A program made the position numbers and the translations under genes. This document shows positions 21,483 to 30,943 of a stretch of 32,125 nucleotides of DNA, piece by piece. Source of the DNA: Beijerinckiaceae bacterium (lineage in GTDB: Bacteria > Pseudomonadota > Alphaproteobacteria > Rhizobiales > Beijerinckiaceae). The notes under the pieces are model-generated. The model did not search any database, had not been told where the DNA came from, and was given only the letters and a program-made list of their open reading frames with translations. Numbering within the stretch: position 1 is the stretch's first letter; each line of letters starts with the position of its first letter. The stretch lies in assembly GCA_947498445.1 (NCBI GenBank), contig CANMLK010000015.1, forward strand, positions 1-32,125, written 5' to 3'.

Positions 21483-21863
21483 CTAGACGCCCGCTTCCTT
21501 GAAGAACGCTTCGGCTTCCTTGAAAGCGTGGTTGGCGGCGGGCACGCTGGCGTAGACCGCACACTGGATCAGGATTTCCTTGATTTCGTCGCGGGTGAGG
21601 CCGTTGTTCAGCGCCCCGCGCAGGTGCAGACGAAATTCGTCCCACTGGGCGTTGGCCACGCATACACTCAGCACGACAATGGAGCGGGCGCGCCGGTCGA
21701 GGCCGGGCCGCTGCCAAACGTCGCCCCACGCGGTGCGCGTGATGTAGTCCACCCAATCGGCGTTGAAAGCGCTGCGGTTGGCGAGCGAACGGTCAACCCA
21801 TTCGTCGCCCAGCACCTCGCGCCGCGTCGCTTCGCCCGTCTTGCGCCGGGCCTCGTCGTCCAT
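21483..21863 (-). CDS. pcaC: 4-carboxymuconolactone decarboxylase (PcaC-like, AhpD fold)
   Basis: RRKTGEATRREVLGDEWVDRSLANRSAFNADWVDYITRTAWGDVWQRPGLDRRARSIVVLSVCVANAQWDEFRLHLRGALNNGLTRDEIKEILIQCAVYASVPAANHAFKEA. Confidence 0.93.
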   Translation of the reverse strand: MDDEARRKTGEATRREVLGDEWVDRSLANRSAFNADWVDYITRTAWGDVWQRPGLDRRARSIVVLSVCVANAQWDEFRLHLRGALNNGLTRDEIKEILIQCAVYASVPAANHAFKEAEAFFKEAGV

Positions 21864-23110
21864 CAGCGCCGACCTCTGGCGTTTTTGCGCGCGGCCTTCT
21901 TTGACGCCGTCTTTGATGCTTTTTTGGCGGGCTTCTTCGCTGCCGTTCTTGTGGGCTTTTTGACCGCCTTTTTGGCGACCTTCCTGGCCGTTTTCTTTAC
22001 GATGGCCTTCGTGGATTTTTTGGCTGCTTTCTTTGTGGCCTTTTTGGCGACCTTCTTGGCGACCTTCTTTGAAGCCTGCTTGGCAGTCTTCTTGGCTGCT
22101 TTCTTCGCCACTTGTTTTAAAGCCTTGGGAGCAGCTTTCTTAGAGGCCTTCTTGGTAGCGGCCTTTACGCTCTTCTTCGCAGCTTTTTTGGCTCCCTTGG
22201 TCGCCGCTTTTGCAGCGGGGGCTTTGCTCGCTTTCTTGGTCGCTTTCTTCGCAGCTTTCCTGGTCGCCTTTTCGGGGGGCGTCTTGGCTGGCTTCTCTAC
22301 CATTGCCGCCTTGGCTGGCTGTGTGGCGGCGGGAGCCGTCAGGAAGGAGACAATCGTGCGCGTAAATTCGTTGGCTGCTTCGATGTTGGACAGATGCGCG
22401 GCTTCCAGCGCCACCAGCCGGGCGCCGGGGATGTGGTCTGCGATCAGCCCGCCAGCGGTGGGCGGCGTCGCTGCGTCCTGGGTGCCGACAATCACCAGCA
22501 CGCGGTTTTTAACGCCGCGGATCGCCTCACGCTGGTCCGCGTCGCGCAGCGCGGCGGCGGTGGCGGCGTAGGCCTCCGCCGATGTGGAGCGGAAACGCGC
22601 CGCCATGGCGTCCACCTCCGCAGGCGCGCGCTCCTGAAAATCGCGGGTGAACCAGCGGTCCATCGTGCCCGGCGCCATGGCGTCCAGCCCCTCCGCCAGC
22701 GCCTGTTTGATGCGGGCGTTCCACACGTCGGGGTGGCCAAAGCAGGCGTTTGTGTTGGAGAGAATCGCACGATCAATGCGCTCTGGCGCGTTGATCATCA
22801 GCCACATGCCCACCGCTCCGCCCAGCGACAGGCCCATGAAATGGGCTTTCTTGACCTTGAGCGCGTCGAGGATGGCCAGCGCGTCGCGTCCCAGTTGCTC
22901 GACGGAATAGGGCCCCGGCGTTGGTTCACTCAGGCCATGGCCGCGCGAATCGTAGCGGATGACCCGGAAGCGCCGCGTCAGGGAGGGCATTTGCGGCTCC
23001 CACTGGCTGAGATCCGAGCCCAGTGAGTGCGCGATGAGGAGCGCGGGCGCTCTGTCGTCGCCCTCAACCGAGACGTTGAAGGAAACGTCGCCGAGCTTGA
23101 TTTCCGCCAT
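21863..23110 (-). CDS. pcaD: 3-oxoadipate enol-lactonase (PcaD-like alpha/beta hydrolase) with C-terminal Lys/Ala-rich histone-H1-like tail
   Basis: Aa 1-257: MAEIKLGDVSFNVSVEGDDRAPALLIAHSLGSDLSQWEPQM...GLSLGGAVGMWL...VIVGTQDAATPP; aa ~264-415: repeated AKKATKKA/AKKVAKKA motifs ending KNARGRR. Stop overlaps the pcaC start (ATGA). Confidence 0.92.
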   Translation of the reverse strand: MAEIKLGDVSFNVSVEGDDRAPALLIAHSLGSDLSQWEPQMPSLTRRFRVIRYDSRGHGLSEPTPGPYSVEQLGRDALAILDALKVKKAHFMGLSLGGAVGMWLMINAPERIDRAILSNTNACFGHPDVWNARIKQALAEGLDAMAPGTMDRWFTRDFQERAPAEVDAMAARFRSTSAEAYAATAAALRDADQREAIRGVKNRVLVIVGTQDAATPPTAGGLIADHIPGARLVALEAAHLSNIEAANEFTRTIVSFLTAPAATQPAKAAMVEKPAKTPPEKATRKAAKKATKKASKAPAAKAATKGAKKAAKKSVKAATKKASKKAAPKALKQVAKKAAKKTAKQASKKVAKKVAKKATKKAAKKSTKAIVKKTARKVAKKAVKKPTRTAAKKPAKKASKTASKKAARKNARGRR

Positions 23111-23350: not shown

Positions 23351-23803
23351 ATGGCGATGACGATGAAGGGGGAGGTTCACCTCCCGGCCGAGCGGCAGAA
23401 GGTTTGGGACATGCTCAATGACCCGGAAGTGCTCAAGCAGTGCATCCCCGGCTGCCAGGAGCTTGAAAAGACCTCGGACACGTCCTTCAAGGCGATCGCC
23501 AAAATCAAAGTCGGGCCCGTCAGCGCAACCTTCAAGGGCAACGTCGAACTCACCGACCTCGACCCGCCGAATGGCTACAAGATTTCGGGGCAAGGCGAGG
23601 GTGGCATCGCGGGCTTCGCCAAGGGTGGCGCGGTCGTGGGCCTGTCGGACGCGCCGCAGGGCGGCACCATCCTCAGCTACAATGTGGAAGCCAACGTCGG
23701 CGGCAAGATCGCCCAGCTCGGCGGCCGTCTCATTGACGGGGTCGCCAAGAAAAACGCGGACGCCTTCTTCTCGAAGTTCGTCGAGGTCGTCAGCAAGGCG
23801 TAA
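23351..23803 (+). CDS. coxG: CoxG-like SRPBCC protein (carbon monoxide dehydrogenase subunit G)
   Basis: [88 protein letters not shown]. Confidence 0.93.
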
Positions 23804-23961: not shown

Positions 23962-24441
23962 ATGCCCAAGGTTTCGATGACCGTGAACGGCAAGCCGGTG
24001 TCCGCCGACGTTGATCCGCGCACGCTGCTTGTACAGTTTTTGCGTGAGACCCTGCGTCTGACCGGCACGCACGTTGGTTGCGACACGAGCCAGTGCGGCT
24101 GCTGCGTGGTTCACGTCGACGGCGTCGCCATGAAGTCCTGCACGCTGCTGGCGCTTACCGCCGATGGCGCGAACGTTTTGACAATCGAGGGCCTCGCCAC
24201 GGATGGCAAGCTGCATCCGATGCAGGAAGCCTTCCGTGAGAATCACGGCCTGCAATGCGGTTTCTGCACGCCGGGCATGATCATGTCCGCAGTCGACATC
24301 GTGCGCCGCAAGGGCAGCGAGCTGGATGAAAAGACCATCCGCCACGAGCTGGAAGGCAACATCTGCCGCTGCACGGGCTACCACAATATCGTCAAGGCGA
24401 TCGCCGCTGGCGCCGCCGCCATGGCGCCGGCAGCCGAATAA
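23962..24441 (+). CDS. coxS: (2Fe-2S) small subunit of CODH/xanthine dehydrogenase-type molybdenum hydroxylase
   Basis: [51 protein letters not shown]...[19 protein letters not shown]...[17 protein letters not shown]: both [2Fe-2S] motifs. Confidence 0.95.
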
Positions 24442-24479
24442 CGTAGCCGCGCGCGACACAAATACGGGGAGCTTCAACG

Positions 24480-25283
24480 ATGTACCAGTTCGCCTATCAC
24501 CGGCCGGACACAGCGCGCAAAGCCGTCAATACGGCCGCCAAATCCGAGGATTCCAAATTCCTCGCCGGCGGCATGACGCTGCTGCCAACCATGAAACAGC
24601 GCCTTGCGGCGCCCACAGGGCTGATCGATCTTTCCCGCTGCGACGACATGCGCGGCATCGAGGTGAAGGGTCGTAACGTCGTCATTGGCGCCATGATGCG
24701 CCATTTCGACGTCGCCAATTCCGACATCGTGAAGGAGAAGATCCCCGCGCTTGCCGACCTTGCAGGCATGATCGGCGATCCCGCCGTGCGCCATCGCGGC
24801 ACGATTGGCGGCTCCGTCGCCAACAATGATCCGGCGGCCGACTATCCGTCCGCCGTGCTCGCGCTGGGCGCGACGGTGATCACCAACAAGCGCAAGATTC
24901 CGGCGGATGAGTTCTTCAACGGCCTGTTCGAAACGGCTCTTGAAGAGGGCGAACTGATCACGAAGATTTCGTTCCCGATCCCCAACAAGGCGGCTTACGA
25001 GAAGTTTCGCAATCCCGCTTCGCGCTACGCCATCGTTGGCGTGTTCGTCGCCAAGAAGGGCAGGGACGTGCGCGTCACTGTCACGGGCGCGGGTTCGGGC
25101 GGTGTGTTCCGCGCGGGCAAGCTCGAGGCGGCGCTGACTGCGAAGTTCCATCCCAAGGGGCTCGACGGCCTGACGTTCCCGGCCGAAGGCCTGAACACGG
25201 ACATCCACGCCGACGCCGAATATCGCGCGCATCTGATCATGGTGATGACGCGCCGAGCCGTGCAAAAGGCGCTGGCCAAGTAA
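24480..25283 (+). CDS. coxM: FAD-binding medium subunit of CODH/xanthine dehydrogenase-type molybdenum hydroxylase
   Basis: MYQFAYHRPDTARKAVNTAAKSEDSKFLAGGMTLLPTMKQRLAAP...VRHRGTIGGSVANNDPAADYPSAVLALGA: FAD motifs AGGMTLLP and TIGGS. Confidence 0.95.
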   Translation: MYQFAYHRPDTARKAVNTAAKSEDSKFLAGGMTLLPTMKQRLAAPTGLIDLSRCDDMRGIEVKGRNVVIGAMMRHFDVANSDIVKEKIPALADLAGMIGDPAVRHRGTIGGSVANNDPAADYPSAVLALGATVITNKRKIPADEFFNGLFETALEEGELITKISFPIPNKAAYEKFRNPASRYAIVGVFVAKKGRDVRVTVTGAGSGGVFRAGKLEAALTAKFHPKGLDGLTFPAEGLNTDIHADAEYRAHLIMVMTRRAVQKALAK

Positions 25284-25371: not shown

Positions 25372-26340
<969 letters not shown>

Positions 26341-26368
26341 CACGCGCACGACGGGGGCGAAGCAGAAC

Positions 26369-26914
26369 ATGAGCATGCAAGAAATCACACCAGCGCCGGG
26401 GCGAGCCTGCGGCTCATGCATGATGTGCTGCAAGGTCTTTAATGTGCCCGAACTCGCCAAGCCCGCTGGCCGCTGGTGCGTGAATGCGCGCGCTGGGGTG
26501 GGCTGCGTCATACATGACGCTCGCCCCATGTCATGCCGCATGTTCCAGTGCTTTTGGCTCAGCTCGTCAACGCTGAGCGACGAATGGAAACCGGACCGCG
26601 CGAAATTTGTCGTCGCAGTTGAGACCAATGGCGCGCTGCAGATCATGTGCGATGCAGCGCAACCGACCGCGTGGCGGCGCGAGCCTTATGAATCGCAAAT
26701 TCGCCGCTGGGCGGAGCATGGCGTGACTATAAAAAAGCCGGTGCTGCTGATGATCGGCGACAAGGCCAGCGTGATCCTGCCCAACACCGAATTGCCGATT
26801 GGCCAGCTCAATCCGGGCGACGGCGTTGAGCTGACCCACGACGGCACGCGCTTTCATGCAAGCGTGCGCAAGGCGAGTCTGGCGCAGACAAGCGCAGGGA
26901 AGACGAGCGCGTGA
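26369..26914 (+). CDS. YkgJ-like cysteine-cluster (CxxCxxCC) protein within the cox operon
   Basis: GRACGSCMMCCKVFNVPELAKPAGRWCVNARAGVGCVIHDARPMSCRMFQCFWL; start taken as ATG 26369; stop overlaps the coxE GTG start (GTGA). Confidence 0.75.
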   Translation: MSMQEITPAPGRACGSCMMCCKVFNVPELAKPAGRWCVNARAGVGCVIHDARPMSCRMFQCFWLSSSTLSDEWKPDRAKFVVAVETNGALQIMCDAAQPTAWRREPYESQIRRWAEHGVTIKKPVLLMIGDKASVILPNTELPIGQLNPGDGVELTHDGTRFHASVRKASLAQTSAGKTSA

Positions 26915-28152
26915 GCCAAGCGCGGGCGCCCGGACAGGACAAATCTGGCGGAGCGCTTGCCGAAAATATTTTGCACTTTGCGCGGGCGTTGCGCGCAGCG
27001 GGCCTGCCGATTGGCACGGGCGCGGCGCTCGACGCCATCAGCGCGATCGAGGTTGCGGGCGTGCGCAACCGCGATGATTTTCGCGTGACGCTGGAAGCGG
27101 TGTTCGTCAAAAAGCGTGAACACGCTGCGGTGTTTGACGAAGCGTTCCGCATTTTCTGGCGCCGTCGCGGCTTCCTTGAACAATTGATGACGCTGATGTC
27201 GCCGGTTGATCAGCCCGCAAACGGGCCAGGCGCGCCAGTTGAAAAGCCCGCTGCTGCGGCTGCACGGGTAGCGCAGGCGCTGATGGGCAAGCGCGAACCT
27301 GAGCGCGAGGAAAGCGCCGTCACTTACGATCAATCGTTCACGGTCTCGCAAGAAAAACTCCTGCAGCGCAAGGACTTTGCGCAAATGAGCGCCGCTGAGA
27401 TCGCGGACGCCTTGCGCGCCATCGCGGCGCTGGATCTGTCTGGCGATGAGCGGCGTACGAGGCGTTTTGCGCCTGCTCGCTCTGGCGCGCGCATCGATTT
27501 GCGCCGCACGCTGCGCCGCTCCATGCGCGGTGGCGGCAGTTTCATTGATCTTGCGCGCACCGCGCCGCAGGTGCGCAAGCCGCCCATCGTGATCTTGTGC
27601 GACATCTCGGGTTCGATGGCTGAATACACGCGCGTGTTTTTGCATTTCTTCCACGCGCTGACAGAGAAACGCGGGCGCGTGCACACGTTTCTGTTCGGCA
27701 CGCGGCTCACCAATGTCACGCGCGCGCTGCGCCACAAGGACCCCGACGAGGCGCTCGCGCAATGCTCCGGCGATGTTCTCGACTGGTCGGGCGGCACGCG
27801 CATCGGACAGTGCCTGCGCCAGTTCAATCGTGATTGGTCGCGGCGCGTGCTGGGGCAGGGCGCCACGGTATTAATCTTCACCGACGGACTTGAGCGGGAG
27901 GGCGTGAGCGAGCTTGCCCGCGAGATGGAGCGTTTGCACAAATCCGCCCGCCGCCTTGTCTGGCTCAATCCGCTGCTGCGGTTTGAGCGGTTTGAGCCGC
28001 GCGCGCAGGGCGTGTGGGCCATGCTGCCGCATGTGGACGAGTTCCGGGCGGTCCACAATCTGGCGAGCGTAGCCGCGCTGGCGGCGGCGCTTTCGGCGCC
28101 CCGAACAGGCGGCGCCGTCGATCCGCGGATGTGGTTGAAGCGCGTGGGCTGA
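26911..28152 (+). CDS. coxE: VWA-domain protein, CoxE-like
   Basis: KPPIVILCDISGSMAEYTRVFLHFFHALTEKRGRVHTFLFGTRLTNVTRALRHKDPDEALAQCSGDVLDWSGGTRIGQCLRQFNRDW: MIDAS DISGS and CoxE-type VWA. Confidence 0.92.
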   Translation: MSQARAPGQDKSGGALAENILHFARALRAAGLPIGTGAALDAISAIEVAGVRNRDDFRVTLEAVFVKKREHAAVFDEAFRIFWRRRGFLEQLMTLMSPVDQPANGPGAPVEKPAAAAARVAQALMGKREPEREESAVTYDQSFTVSQEKLLQRKDFAQMSAAEIADALRAIAALDLSGDERRTRRFAPARSGARIDLRRTLRRSMRGGGSFIDLARTAPQVRKPPIVILCDISGSMAEYTRVFLHFFHALTEKRGRVHTFLFGTRLTNVTRALRHKDPDEALAQCSGDVLDWSGGTRIGQCLRQFNRDWSRRVLGQGATVLIFTDGLEREGVSELAREMERLHKSARRLVWLNPLLRFERFEPRAQGVWAMLPHVDEFRAVHNLASVAALAAALSAPRTGGAVDPRMWLKRVG

Positions 28153-28268: not shown

Positions 28269-28592
28269 ATGCTCGCCACCGACGAAAACATTCTGGCCCG
28301 CGCCGAGGACTGGCGAAAAGCAGGCAAGGGCGTCGCCATTGCGACCGTTACGGAAACCTGGGGCTCGGCGCCGCGGCCGGTCGGCTCGCATCTCGTCATC
28401 GATGAAGATGGTCATTTCCTGGGCTCCGTTTCGGGCGGGTGCGTCGAGGGCGAGGTTGTCAGCGAGGCGATGGACACGATCGCCGATGGCAAGCCGCGCA
28501 TTCTGGAGTTTGGCGTGGCCGATGAAGCTGCGTGGCGCGTTGGCCTCTCGTGCGGCGGGCGTATTCGCGTCTATGTCGAGAAGGTGGTCTGA
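28269..28592 (+). CDS. XdhC/CoxI N-terminal-domain protein (Mo-cofactor maturation)
   Basis: MLATDENILARAEDWRKAGKGVAIATVTETWGSAPRPVGSHLVIDEDGHFLGSVSGGCVEGEVVSEA...WRVGLSCGGRIRVYVE; 107 aa, no Rossmann domain. Confidence 0.92.
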   Translation: MLATDENILARAEDWRKAGKGVAIATVTETWGSAPRPVGSHLVIDEDGHFLGSVSGGCVEGEVVSEAMDTIADGKPRILEFGVADEAAWRVGLSCGGRIRVYVEKVV

Positions 28593-29311
28593 TGCGTTTC
28601 GATGTTCTGGCCGCAATGAATGGCGAACGCGCGGCGCGGCGCGCCTGTGTGCTCGTCACCGAAATGCCCGGCGGTGATCAGCGGTTTGTGAAAGCCGCTG
28701 ATCTGGCGTCCGATCCGCTCGCCGAGATTCTTGAGGCGAGCCTGCGCACTGGCAAGAGCGGCATGGTGGAGCACGAGGGCCGCTCGTATTTCCTTACCGT
28801 GCAGGCGCCGCCCGCGCGGCTGATCGTGATTGGCGCCGTGCATATTACGCAAGCGCTGGCGCCCATGGCGCGCGTCGCGGGGTTCGATCTGACGATCATC
28901 GATCCGCGCACCGCGTTCGCCACGCTGGAGCGTTTTCCGGACGTGACGCTGATTGCCGACTGGCCGCAGGAGATCATCCCGACGCTTGGGCTTGATCGCT
29001 ATACGGCGGTTGCGTGTTTCACGCACGATCCCAAGATTGACGATCCGGGGATCGAAGCGGCGTTGTCTGCGGAGTGTTTTTATGTCGGCGCGCTCGGCTC
29101 GCGAAAGACCCACGGCAACCGCGTGCAACGCCTGAAGGAGAAGGGTTTCTCCGATGAGCAGATTGCGCGCATCAAGGCGCCCATCGGCGTTGATATCGGC
29201 GCGGTGAGCCCGGCGGAAATCGCCGTGTCCGTGCTTGCGGAAATCGTGCTTTCGCTGCGCAAGAAGCCTTTGCGCGCGGACGCGCCGCAACGCGCTGGAG
29301 CAGCGGCGTGA
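28592..29311 (+). CDS. XdhC-family protein, C-terminal Rossmann-domain type
   Basis: PPARLIVIGAVHITQALAPMARVAGFDLTIIDPRTAFATLERFPDV...YVGALGSRKTHGNRVQRLKEKGFSDEQIARIKAPIGVDIGAVSPAEIAVSVLAEIVL; ATGA-type overlap with the preceding gene. Confidence 0.92.
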   Translation: MRFDVLAAMNGERAARRACVLVTEMPGGDQRFVKAADLASDPLAEILEASLRTGKSGMVEHEGRSYFLTVQAPPARLIVIGAVHITQALAPMARVAGFDLTIIDPRTAFATLERFPDVTLIADWPQEIIPTLGLDRYTAVACFTHDPKIDDPGIEAALSAECFYVGALGSRKTHGNRVQRLKEKGFSDEQIARIKAPIGVDIGAVSPAEIAVSVLAEIVLSLRKKPLRADAPQRAGAAA

Positions 29312-30339
29312 AGTTTGGACCTGTAGCGGTGGCCGACAGCGTTGGCGCCATCGCTGCACACAGCATTCGGTATGACAGTTTCGTCCTCAAGAAGGGGGAG
29401 ACCGTCACGCGCGCGCATGTGGAGAGCCTGCGCGGCGCGGGCATTCTGGAAATTGTCGTCGCGCAGCTTGAAGGTGATGATGTTGGCGAGAATGACGCAG
29501 CTGGCGCGCTGGCCCGCGCGTTGGCCGGCGCCCATGTTCGTATTGAAAAGCCATTCACCGGGCGTAGCAATCTGTTTGCCGAACGCGCGGGCGTGCTGGT
29601 CATCGACGAGGCGGGCGTCAATGGCGTCAACGATGTTGACGAAACGTTGACCGTCGCAACGCTGGCGCCATGGAAGGCTGTGGTCGCAGGCGAGATGATC
29701 GGCACGGTGAAGATCATTCCCTACGCTGCGCCAAGACGTGGGCTCGACGCCGCGTTGGCTCTGTCACGCAAGGACTTCATCAAGGTTGCCGCATTCAGCG
29801 GCAAGAAGGTCGGCGTCATCTCGACATTGCTGCCGGGCCTGAAGTCGGCGACGGTGACCAAGACGTTGCGCGTGATGAGCGAACGCCTTGCGCCAATGGG
29901 CGGCGAAATTGTATGCGATTTGCGCACGCCCCATGAGTCCGGGGCGCTCTCCGCAGCGATTCGCGAGGTCGCGCCGCTCGCTGACATTGTGGTGGTCTTC
30001 GGCGCCTCCGCGATCACCGACCGGCGGGACGTGATCCCCTCTGCGCTCGTCCATGCGGGCGGCGAGATTGTGCATCTGGGCATGCCGGTTGATCCGGGCA
30101 ATCTGCTGCTGTTGGGGCGCATCGCAGGCAAGCCGCTGCTGGGAGCGCCGGGTTGCGCGCGCTCGCCAAAGGAAAACGGCTTTGACTGGGTGCTGCAGCG
30201 ACTCTTTGCCGACCTTGAGGTTACGGCGTCCGACGTCAGGCGCATGGGCGTTGGCGGCTTGCTGATGGAAATCGTCACACGCGGTCAGCCGCGTGAAGGT
30301 CAGCAGGGCGAAACCGGCGGTTCTGGCGACGATGACTGA
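29308..30339 (+). CDS. Molybdopterin-binding/MoeA-like (MoCF_biosynth) protein
   Basis: MKFGPVAVADSVGAIAAHSIRYDSFVLKKGETVTRAHVESLRGAGILEIVVAQLEGDDVGENDAA...MPVDPGNLLLLGRIAGKPLLGAPGCARSPKENGFDWVLQRL; GTG start overlapping the upstream stop. Confidence 0.88.
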   Translation: MKFGPVAVADSVGAIAAHSIRYDSFVLKKGETVTRAHVESLRGAGILEIVVAQLEGDDVGENDAAGALARALAGAHVRIEKPFTGRSNLFAERAGVLVIDEAGVNGVNDVDETLTVATLAPWKAVVAGEMIGTVKIIPYAAPRRGLDAALALSRKDFIKVAAFSGKKVGVISTLLPGLKSATVTKTLRVMSERLAPMGGEIVCDLRTPHESGALSAAIREVAPLADIVVVFGASAITDRRDVIPSALVHAGGEIVHLGMPVDPGNLLLLGRIAGKPLLGAPGCARSPKENGFDWVLQRLFADLEVTASDVRRMGVGGLLMEIVTRGQPREGQQGETGGSGDDD

Positions 30340-30943
30340 GCGCCCGCGCATTGCGGCTGTCATTTTGGCCGCTGGACAGTCGAGCCGCTATCGGGCGGCC
30401 GATCCCTCCGCCGTCTCGAAAGTTGTTGCGACGCTCGCAGGTAAGCCCCTTGTGCGACACGTTGTGGAAGCGGCGTTCGCCGCTGACCTTGATCCGGTCG
30501 TCGTGGTCACCGGCTTTGCGCGGGAGGCGAGCGTAGCCGCACTTGAGGGGCTGGCGGTCAGCTTTGTCCACAATCTGTCCTTTGCGAGCGGTTTGTCGTC
30601 GTCGCTGAAGACCGGCGTTGCTTCCTTGCCTGATGACGTGGCGGGCGCCGCGATCTTGCTGGCTGACATGCCCAGGGTGAGCGGCGATTTGCTGCACACT
30701 CTTGCGGCGGTGTTCCACGATAATCCGCACGCCTCTGCGCTTGCGCCAAATCTGAATGGGCAGCGCGGCAATCCGGTTTTTATCCGCCGCGCGCTTTTCG
30801 ATGACGTTGCGCGGCTTGAGGGCGACGTCGGAGCGCGCGCGTTATTGCGAGGCCGCAGCGACGTTATTGACGTGGCGATGGACGACGAAGCCGTCGCATT
30901 TGATGTCGACACGCCGGACGCATTGACCGCGCGCGACGCGTGA
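30332..30943 (+). CDS. Nucleotidyltransferase family protein (MobA/MocA-like)
   Basis: MTERPRIAAVILAAGQSSRYRAADPSAVSKVVATLAGKPLVRHVVEAAFAADLDPVVVVTGF...GAAILLADMPRVSGDLLHTL. Confidence 0.9.
   Translation: MTERPRIAAVILAAGQSSRYRAADPSAVSKVVATLAGKPLVRHVVEAAFAADLDPVVVVTGFAREASVAALEGLAVSFVHNLSFASGLSSSLKTGVASLPDDVAGAAILLADMPRVSGDLLHTLAAVFHDNPHASALAPNLNGQRGNPVFIRRALFDDVARLEGDVGARALLRGRSDVIDVAMDDEAVAFDVDTPDALTARDA

Follow-up and report, generated by a model that had tools for sequence, protein, structure and literature searches.

Form II cox gene clusters (coxSLM) encode the small (S), large (L) and medium (M) subunits in the order S-L-M and their role in relation to CO is uncertain (PMC13203968, PMC13240472), with CO oxidation being uncertain even for intact clusters (PMC13240472). 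Genome surveys of the family seek complete S-L-M or M-S-L units; partial cox operons were ascribed to incomplete recovery (PMC13240472) or read as a possible loss of function (PMC11245477). The latter source described photic-zone SAR202 with coxS and coxM in the absence of coxL, at annotation level, and left this unexplained (PMC11245477). Steroid C25 dehydrogenase of Sterolibacterium denitrificans has eight catalytic alpha subunits against six beta/gamma sets, and the alpha isoforms were proposed to form alternative alpha-beta-gamma enzymes (PMC6153880). Each component of the arrangement considered below is already known. For sharing of S and M among several L in the present Mo-enzyme family, no description was found in open papers (subscription papers lay outside the search), and a literature search for Sulfolobus cut paralogues likewise found nothing in open papers.

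The window (the whole stretch analysed, 32,125 bp, which is the entire 32-kb contig C15 of a Beijerinckiaceae genome) carried homologues of S, M, CoxD, CoxE, XdhC and CoxG in the order of form II cox clusters, and its coxS and coxM belonged to the form II subfamily (Table 1). However, coxS and coxM were separated by exactly 38 bp, which included the GGGGAG ribosome-binding site of coxM, and the L domain PF02738 had no match anywhere on the contig. The subunit families were also in common with form I Mo-CO dehydrogenase (coxMSL), but the window order was S-M and not M-S-L, and the CSFR of the form I motif AYxCSFR was not found in any extracted L. The cluster L of relatives carried the form II motif AYRGAGR, whereas the window cluster is without L, and the candidates for partnering it are paralogues encoded in trans, whose active-site loops vary. 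The window resembles the SAR202 described there in having S and M without L and differs in belonging to another phylum. It resembles steroid C25 dehydrogenase in that catalytic subunits outnumber partner sets, although that enzyme is of another Mo family (EBDH-like, with a bis-MGD cofactor and heme b in the gamma subunit).

Table 1. Features of the L-less cox cluster in the window
Feature	Position	Strand	Evidence or remark
coxG homologue, SRPBCC fold	23351..23803	+	Pfam COXG E=9.8e-41; syntenic in relatives
coxS, [2Fe-2S] small subunit, complete, 8 cysteines	23962..24441	+	Fer2_2 E=6.5e-33, Fer2 1e-7
S-M junction	24442..24479	+	Site of ~2.4-kb L gene in relatives; compare L064, L066, L070
coxM, FAD-binding medium subunit, complete	24480..25283	+	FAD_binding_5 E=3.7e-46, CO_deh_flav_C 3e-5
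coxD, MoxR-type AAA+ ATPase, ATG near 25429	25372..26340	+	AAA_5 E=5e-12, MadB-like ATPase
Uncharacterised ORF between coxD and coxE	26267..26914	+	No Pfam match; 34-60% identical in relatives
coxE, VWA protein	26911..28152	+	VWA_CoxE E=9.4e-75
XdhC N-domain (XdhC_CoxI), own ORF	28269..28592	+	E=6.6e-27
XdhC C-domain (XdhC_C, Rossmann), overlapping ORF	28532..29311	+	E=4e-42
MoeA-like protein, weak	29308..30339	+	NCBIfam E=2e-6, no Pfam match; syntenic
MobA/MocA-like nucleotidyltransferase	30293..30943	+	NTP_transf_3 E=2e-32

The sequence-only reading of the window had placed the end of coxS at 24441 and the start of coxM at 24480 and had seen no large subunit in the window; both coordinates were verified and the lack of L was borne out by the profile search. 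The coxG that it named was supported by its Pfam match, as were CoxD, CoxE and a MobA-like protein in its maturation set, while the MoeA-like member was weak only. Its 'two XdhC' were found to be the N- and C-domains of a single XdhC split over two overlapping ORFs and not two full paralogues; this split (28269-29311) recurs across relatives. The coxS product has 159 aa from ATG 23962, which is preceded by AGGAG; the mechanically listed start TTG 23866 was rejected as too early. The coxM product has 267 aa from ATG 24480. The ORF between coxD and coxE evolves fast, yet it is retained in close relatives. Upstream of coxG and on the opposite strand, in the window (21863-23110) as in relatives, lies a gene for a 3-oxoadipate enol-lactonase-like hydrolase (415 aa), whose C-terminal ~155 aa form an extension that had no Pfam match.

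Comparison of the syntenic locus, which the same reading had proposed, showed L between S and M in most relatives and its absence in several; most of the genomes compared were MAGs. The order in relatives was a permease and the hydrolase on the minus strand followed by G, S, L, M, D, E, XdhC-N, XdhC-C, Moe and Mob on the plus strand, and G-S-L-M-D-E-XdhC-Moe-Mob is the ancestral locus, still present in most relatives. L of ~2.4 kb was located between S and M in G022, G024, G031, G020, G004, G003, G013, G055 and G049, and L also held this place in many named genera (Bosea, Labrys, Mesorhizobium, Bradyrhizobium). Adjacency of S and M without L was found in G007 (M 96% identical to that of the window, junction 38 bp), G001 and G021 (88%; 20 and 32 bp) and RYN_496, which is genome G064 (85%; 32 bp), and, at greater distance, in G016, G017 and G029. 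It was also found in Xanthobacteraceae Bin_30_3_2 (L132), Bradyrhizobiaceae SJ505 (L136, in the order S-M-M') and the one-contig chromosome of Rhodospirillales bin96 (L175). On the S+M tree, the L-less state required six changes, at least five of them forced by the starred branches.

The fate of the original L was followed with the cluster L of G022 as query. Orthologues of 91% (G031) and 72% identity (G062) were located in L-bearing loci, that of G062 in a second, complete S-L-M locus. No match above 47% identity was found in the window genome (best match 46%), G007, G001, G021, G064, G016, G017, G029, G061 or G063, and none of the window genome's own L fell inside the cluster-L clade of the L tree. 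Relocation of cluster L within the genome was ruled out by this difference in identity (≤47% in L-less genomes against 72-91% where L persists), and the comparison indicates true loss of the original L.

Although L is gone from the cluster, it is not gone from the genome. Family searches of the window genome (3.9 Mb) produced 24 PF02738 matches, all outside the contig, against seven for FAD_binding_5 and 13 for the small subunit, and the number of L genes was about 22; gene counts per genome rest on such profile searches. In a FastTree phylogeny of 106 L proteins, with which an earlier tree agreed in outline, one clade (support 100) took in the cluster L, the L of L-S-M loci and all but four of the L without S/M. 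In this form-II-like clade, 56 of 69 rows lacked S and M within 1.5 kb. Nine L of the window genome belong to the clade: that of C122 is part of an L-S-M locus, and the other eight are orphans (C33, C200, C209, C1, C5, C8, C122-minus and C173). The genome-wide hunt suggested by the sequence-only reading turned up intact same-clade L without adjacent S/M. Two of the orphans (C209 and C173) abut contig ends; in G007 and G064, where the flanks are present in full, the orthologues of both are likewise orphan. Against these, only two S/M sets of form II type were present, the window pair and that of C122. The L genes of nine L-less genomes were surveyed, and each of the nine carried same-clade orphan L; such orphans abound in the L-bearing G022 and G024 as well. 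Orphan L genes are also present in Roseiarcaceae H3SJ34-1, a culturable relative. The GxGEAG-type catalytic-glutamate motif was found by a simple pattern in most, not all, orphan L, the active-site loops varied (PYRGNGR, AYRSSGR, TYRGAGR, PYRGAGR), and the nearest solved structures to one orphan L were CoxL 8uem and 1n5w. Neighbouring genes encoded, among others, KDPG aldolase, semialdehyde dehydrogenase, a TctC receptor, amidase and enoyl-CoA hydratase, GMC oxidoreductase, a TPP enzyme and acyl-CoA dehydrogenase.

In three genomes, L and S/M were wholly apart. In G061, L and M number five each; four L lie beside their own S/M, leaving exactly one orphan form-II-like L (C9:83866) and exactly one L-less S-M (C5:114210). 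G063, a single contig of 3.86 Mb, has three form-II-like orphan L and a single S-M without L. The intact form-II-like L of G021 number five, a count that leaves out one unclassified L fragment at a contig end; all five are orphan and both of its form-II-type S-M sets are L-less. Since in these genomes all intact form-II-like L are orphan and all form-II-type S/M are L-less, by elimination the two should pair, if they function like characterised members of the family.

The explanation held with good confidence is that the S-M pair and its maturation genes serve one or more trans-encoded form-II-like L, the cluster having descended from a form-II cox-type S-L-M operon that lost its own L and kept the rest because it was shared. 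Two possibilities raised by the sequence-only reading, loss of the original L and service to an L encoded elsewhere, would therefore hold jointly, the second being very likely; a separate redox role is neither needed nor favoured. From genome content we infer the assembly of S and M with trans-encoded L (one or more of the eight orphans), the number of L per pair and their substrates. The path of electrons from Mo through [2Fe-2S] to FAD is established for the family. The window S/M and an orphan L would presumably use it, such that substrate would be oxidised at the Mo centre of the trans-encoded L, electrons would pass to the two [2Fe-2S] clusters of S and on to FAD in M, and the adjacent maturation genes would load and mature the cofactor in that L. 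On balance, the wider hub-and-spoke form of this proposal is favoured, in which one S-M pair and one maturation set would serve many exchangeable L, up to about eight here. Each L would stand in its own catabolic neighbourhood and new substrates could be gained by adding an L gene alone; the different catabolic neighbours of the orphans fit separate substrates with a common electron module. The 'missing' coxL would then be the end state of an uncoupling reached repeatedly in Alphaproteobacteria. Most orphan orthogroups of the window genome are orphan also in G022 and G024, so that their separation is older than the loss; as orphans abound in these L-bearing genomes, sharing probably came first and allowed the loss to be tolerated. 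On the other side, the second S/M set, beside L at C122, could alone serve the orphans.

A narrower form of shared service, included in the probability of the main explanation, is that a single, particular orphan L took the place of the lost L as a 1:1 non-orthologous partner. G061 is such a 1:1 case, and an L of the C209 type, orphan in the window clade, is part of an L-S-M cluster in G022, G024 and G029. Nevertheless, the excess of eight orphan L over two S/M sets in the window genome and the orphan state of most of these orthogroups in L-bearing genomes argue against it, and strict replacement is held as a doubtful alternative. In a tree scan for L confined to L-less genomes, the C200-type L was present only in the window genome and G007.

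Recent loss of L could instead have left S, M and the maturation genes as decaying passengers. L is indeed absent, and dN/dS of S was somewhat higher in the L-less clade (mostly 0.09-0.14) than in L-bearing pairs (0.005-0.079). However, dN/dS between the window and G007 was 0.049 for S and 0.052 for M, and values in more distant L-less pairs (0.09-0.15) were close to those of L-bearing pairs (0.005-0.19). In the five genomes that have the loss in common, both S and M are still intact, with 85-97% identity and dN/dS of 0.05-0.15. Of the positions with 97% or greater invariance across 80 L-bearing clusters, the window retained 62/62 in S and 72/72 in M (134/134), and these residues were likewise unchanged in G007, G001 and G021. 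S/M and maturation genes were also retained in the parallel L-less lineages. The substitution pattern indicates that S and M are under purifying selection and are not decaying, and the passenger explanation is quite improbable.

That S and M act without any L, as a free-standing, diaphorase-like flavin/iron-sulfur redox module, would agree with the intact state of both cofactor-binding subunits. It is very improbable, as genes acting on L (CoxD/E, XdhC, MobA-like) are retained beside the pair, no L-less genome examined lacked a same-clade orphan L, and the S/M residues invariant in L-bearing clusters stay invariant. Finally, an assembly or binning artefact with 2.3 kb collapsed, raised earlier as an assembly deletion and conceivable in a draft of 332 contigs, is refuted to the point of being scarcely credible by independent genomes with M 85-96% identical that show the same adjacency with differing junctions of 20-38 bp and by the single contig of G063.

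Should many L depend on one S/M pair, as in the wider form of the shared-module proposal, numerous orphan L of Alphaproteobacteria would probably be active enzymes that operon-completeness filters overlook. A form-II-like L assayed alone would fail because the right partner is absent, and the enzyme would resemble a plug-in system.

Other observations concerned further S/M pairs and L genes. In Bradyrhizobiaceae SJ505 (L136/L247), the L-less S-M is followed by a tandem second M, 56% identical to the window M. The window genome has another S/M pair in M-S order with no L adjoining (C11:30813-32128, L079), for which the orthologous locus of G029 forms a complete M-S-L unit (M and S 57% and 68% identical); in the window genome, the matching L lies ~11 kb off on the same contig (C11:19160, L078) and belongs to a different L clade. 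At C85 of the window genome (L080), a fused S-M ORF precedes an L that is interrupted by an in-frame TAG/frame break; this L is intact in G007 (L198). G021 (L225, C28:14241-15562) and G022 (L182/L267, C2:267658) each have a further S-M pair that lacks L; of the two pairs, one is of the L-S-M type and the other is divergent. In addition, cobalamin-independent methionine synthase-like (Meth_synt_2) genes were found near the orphan L of C33 and C173 (L081, L091).
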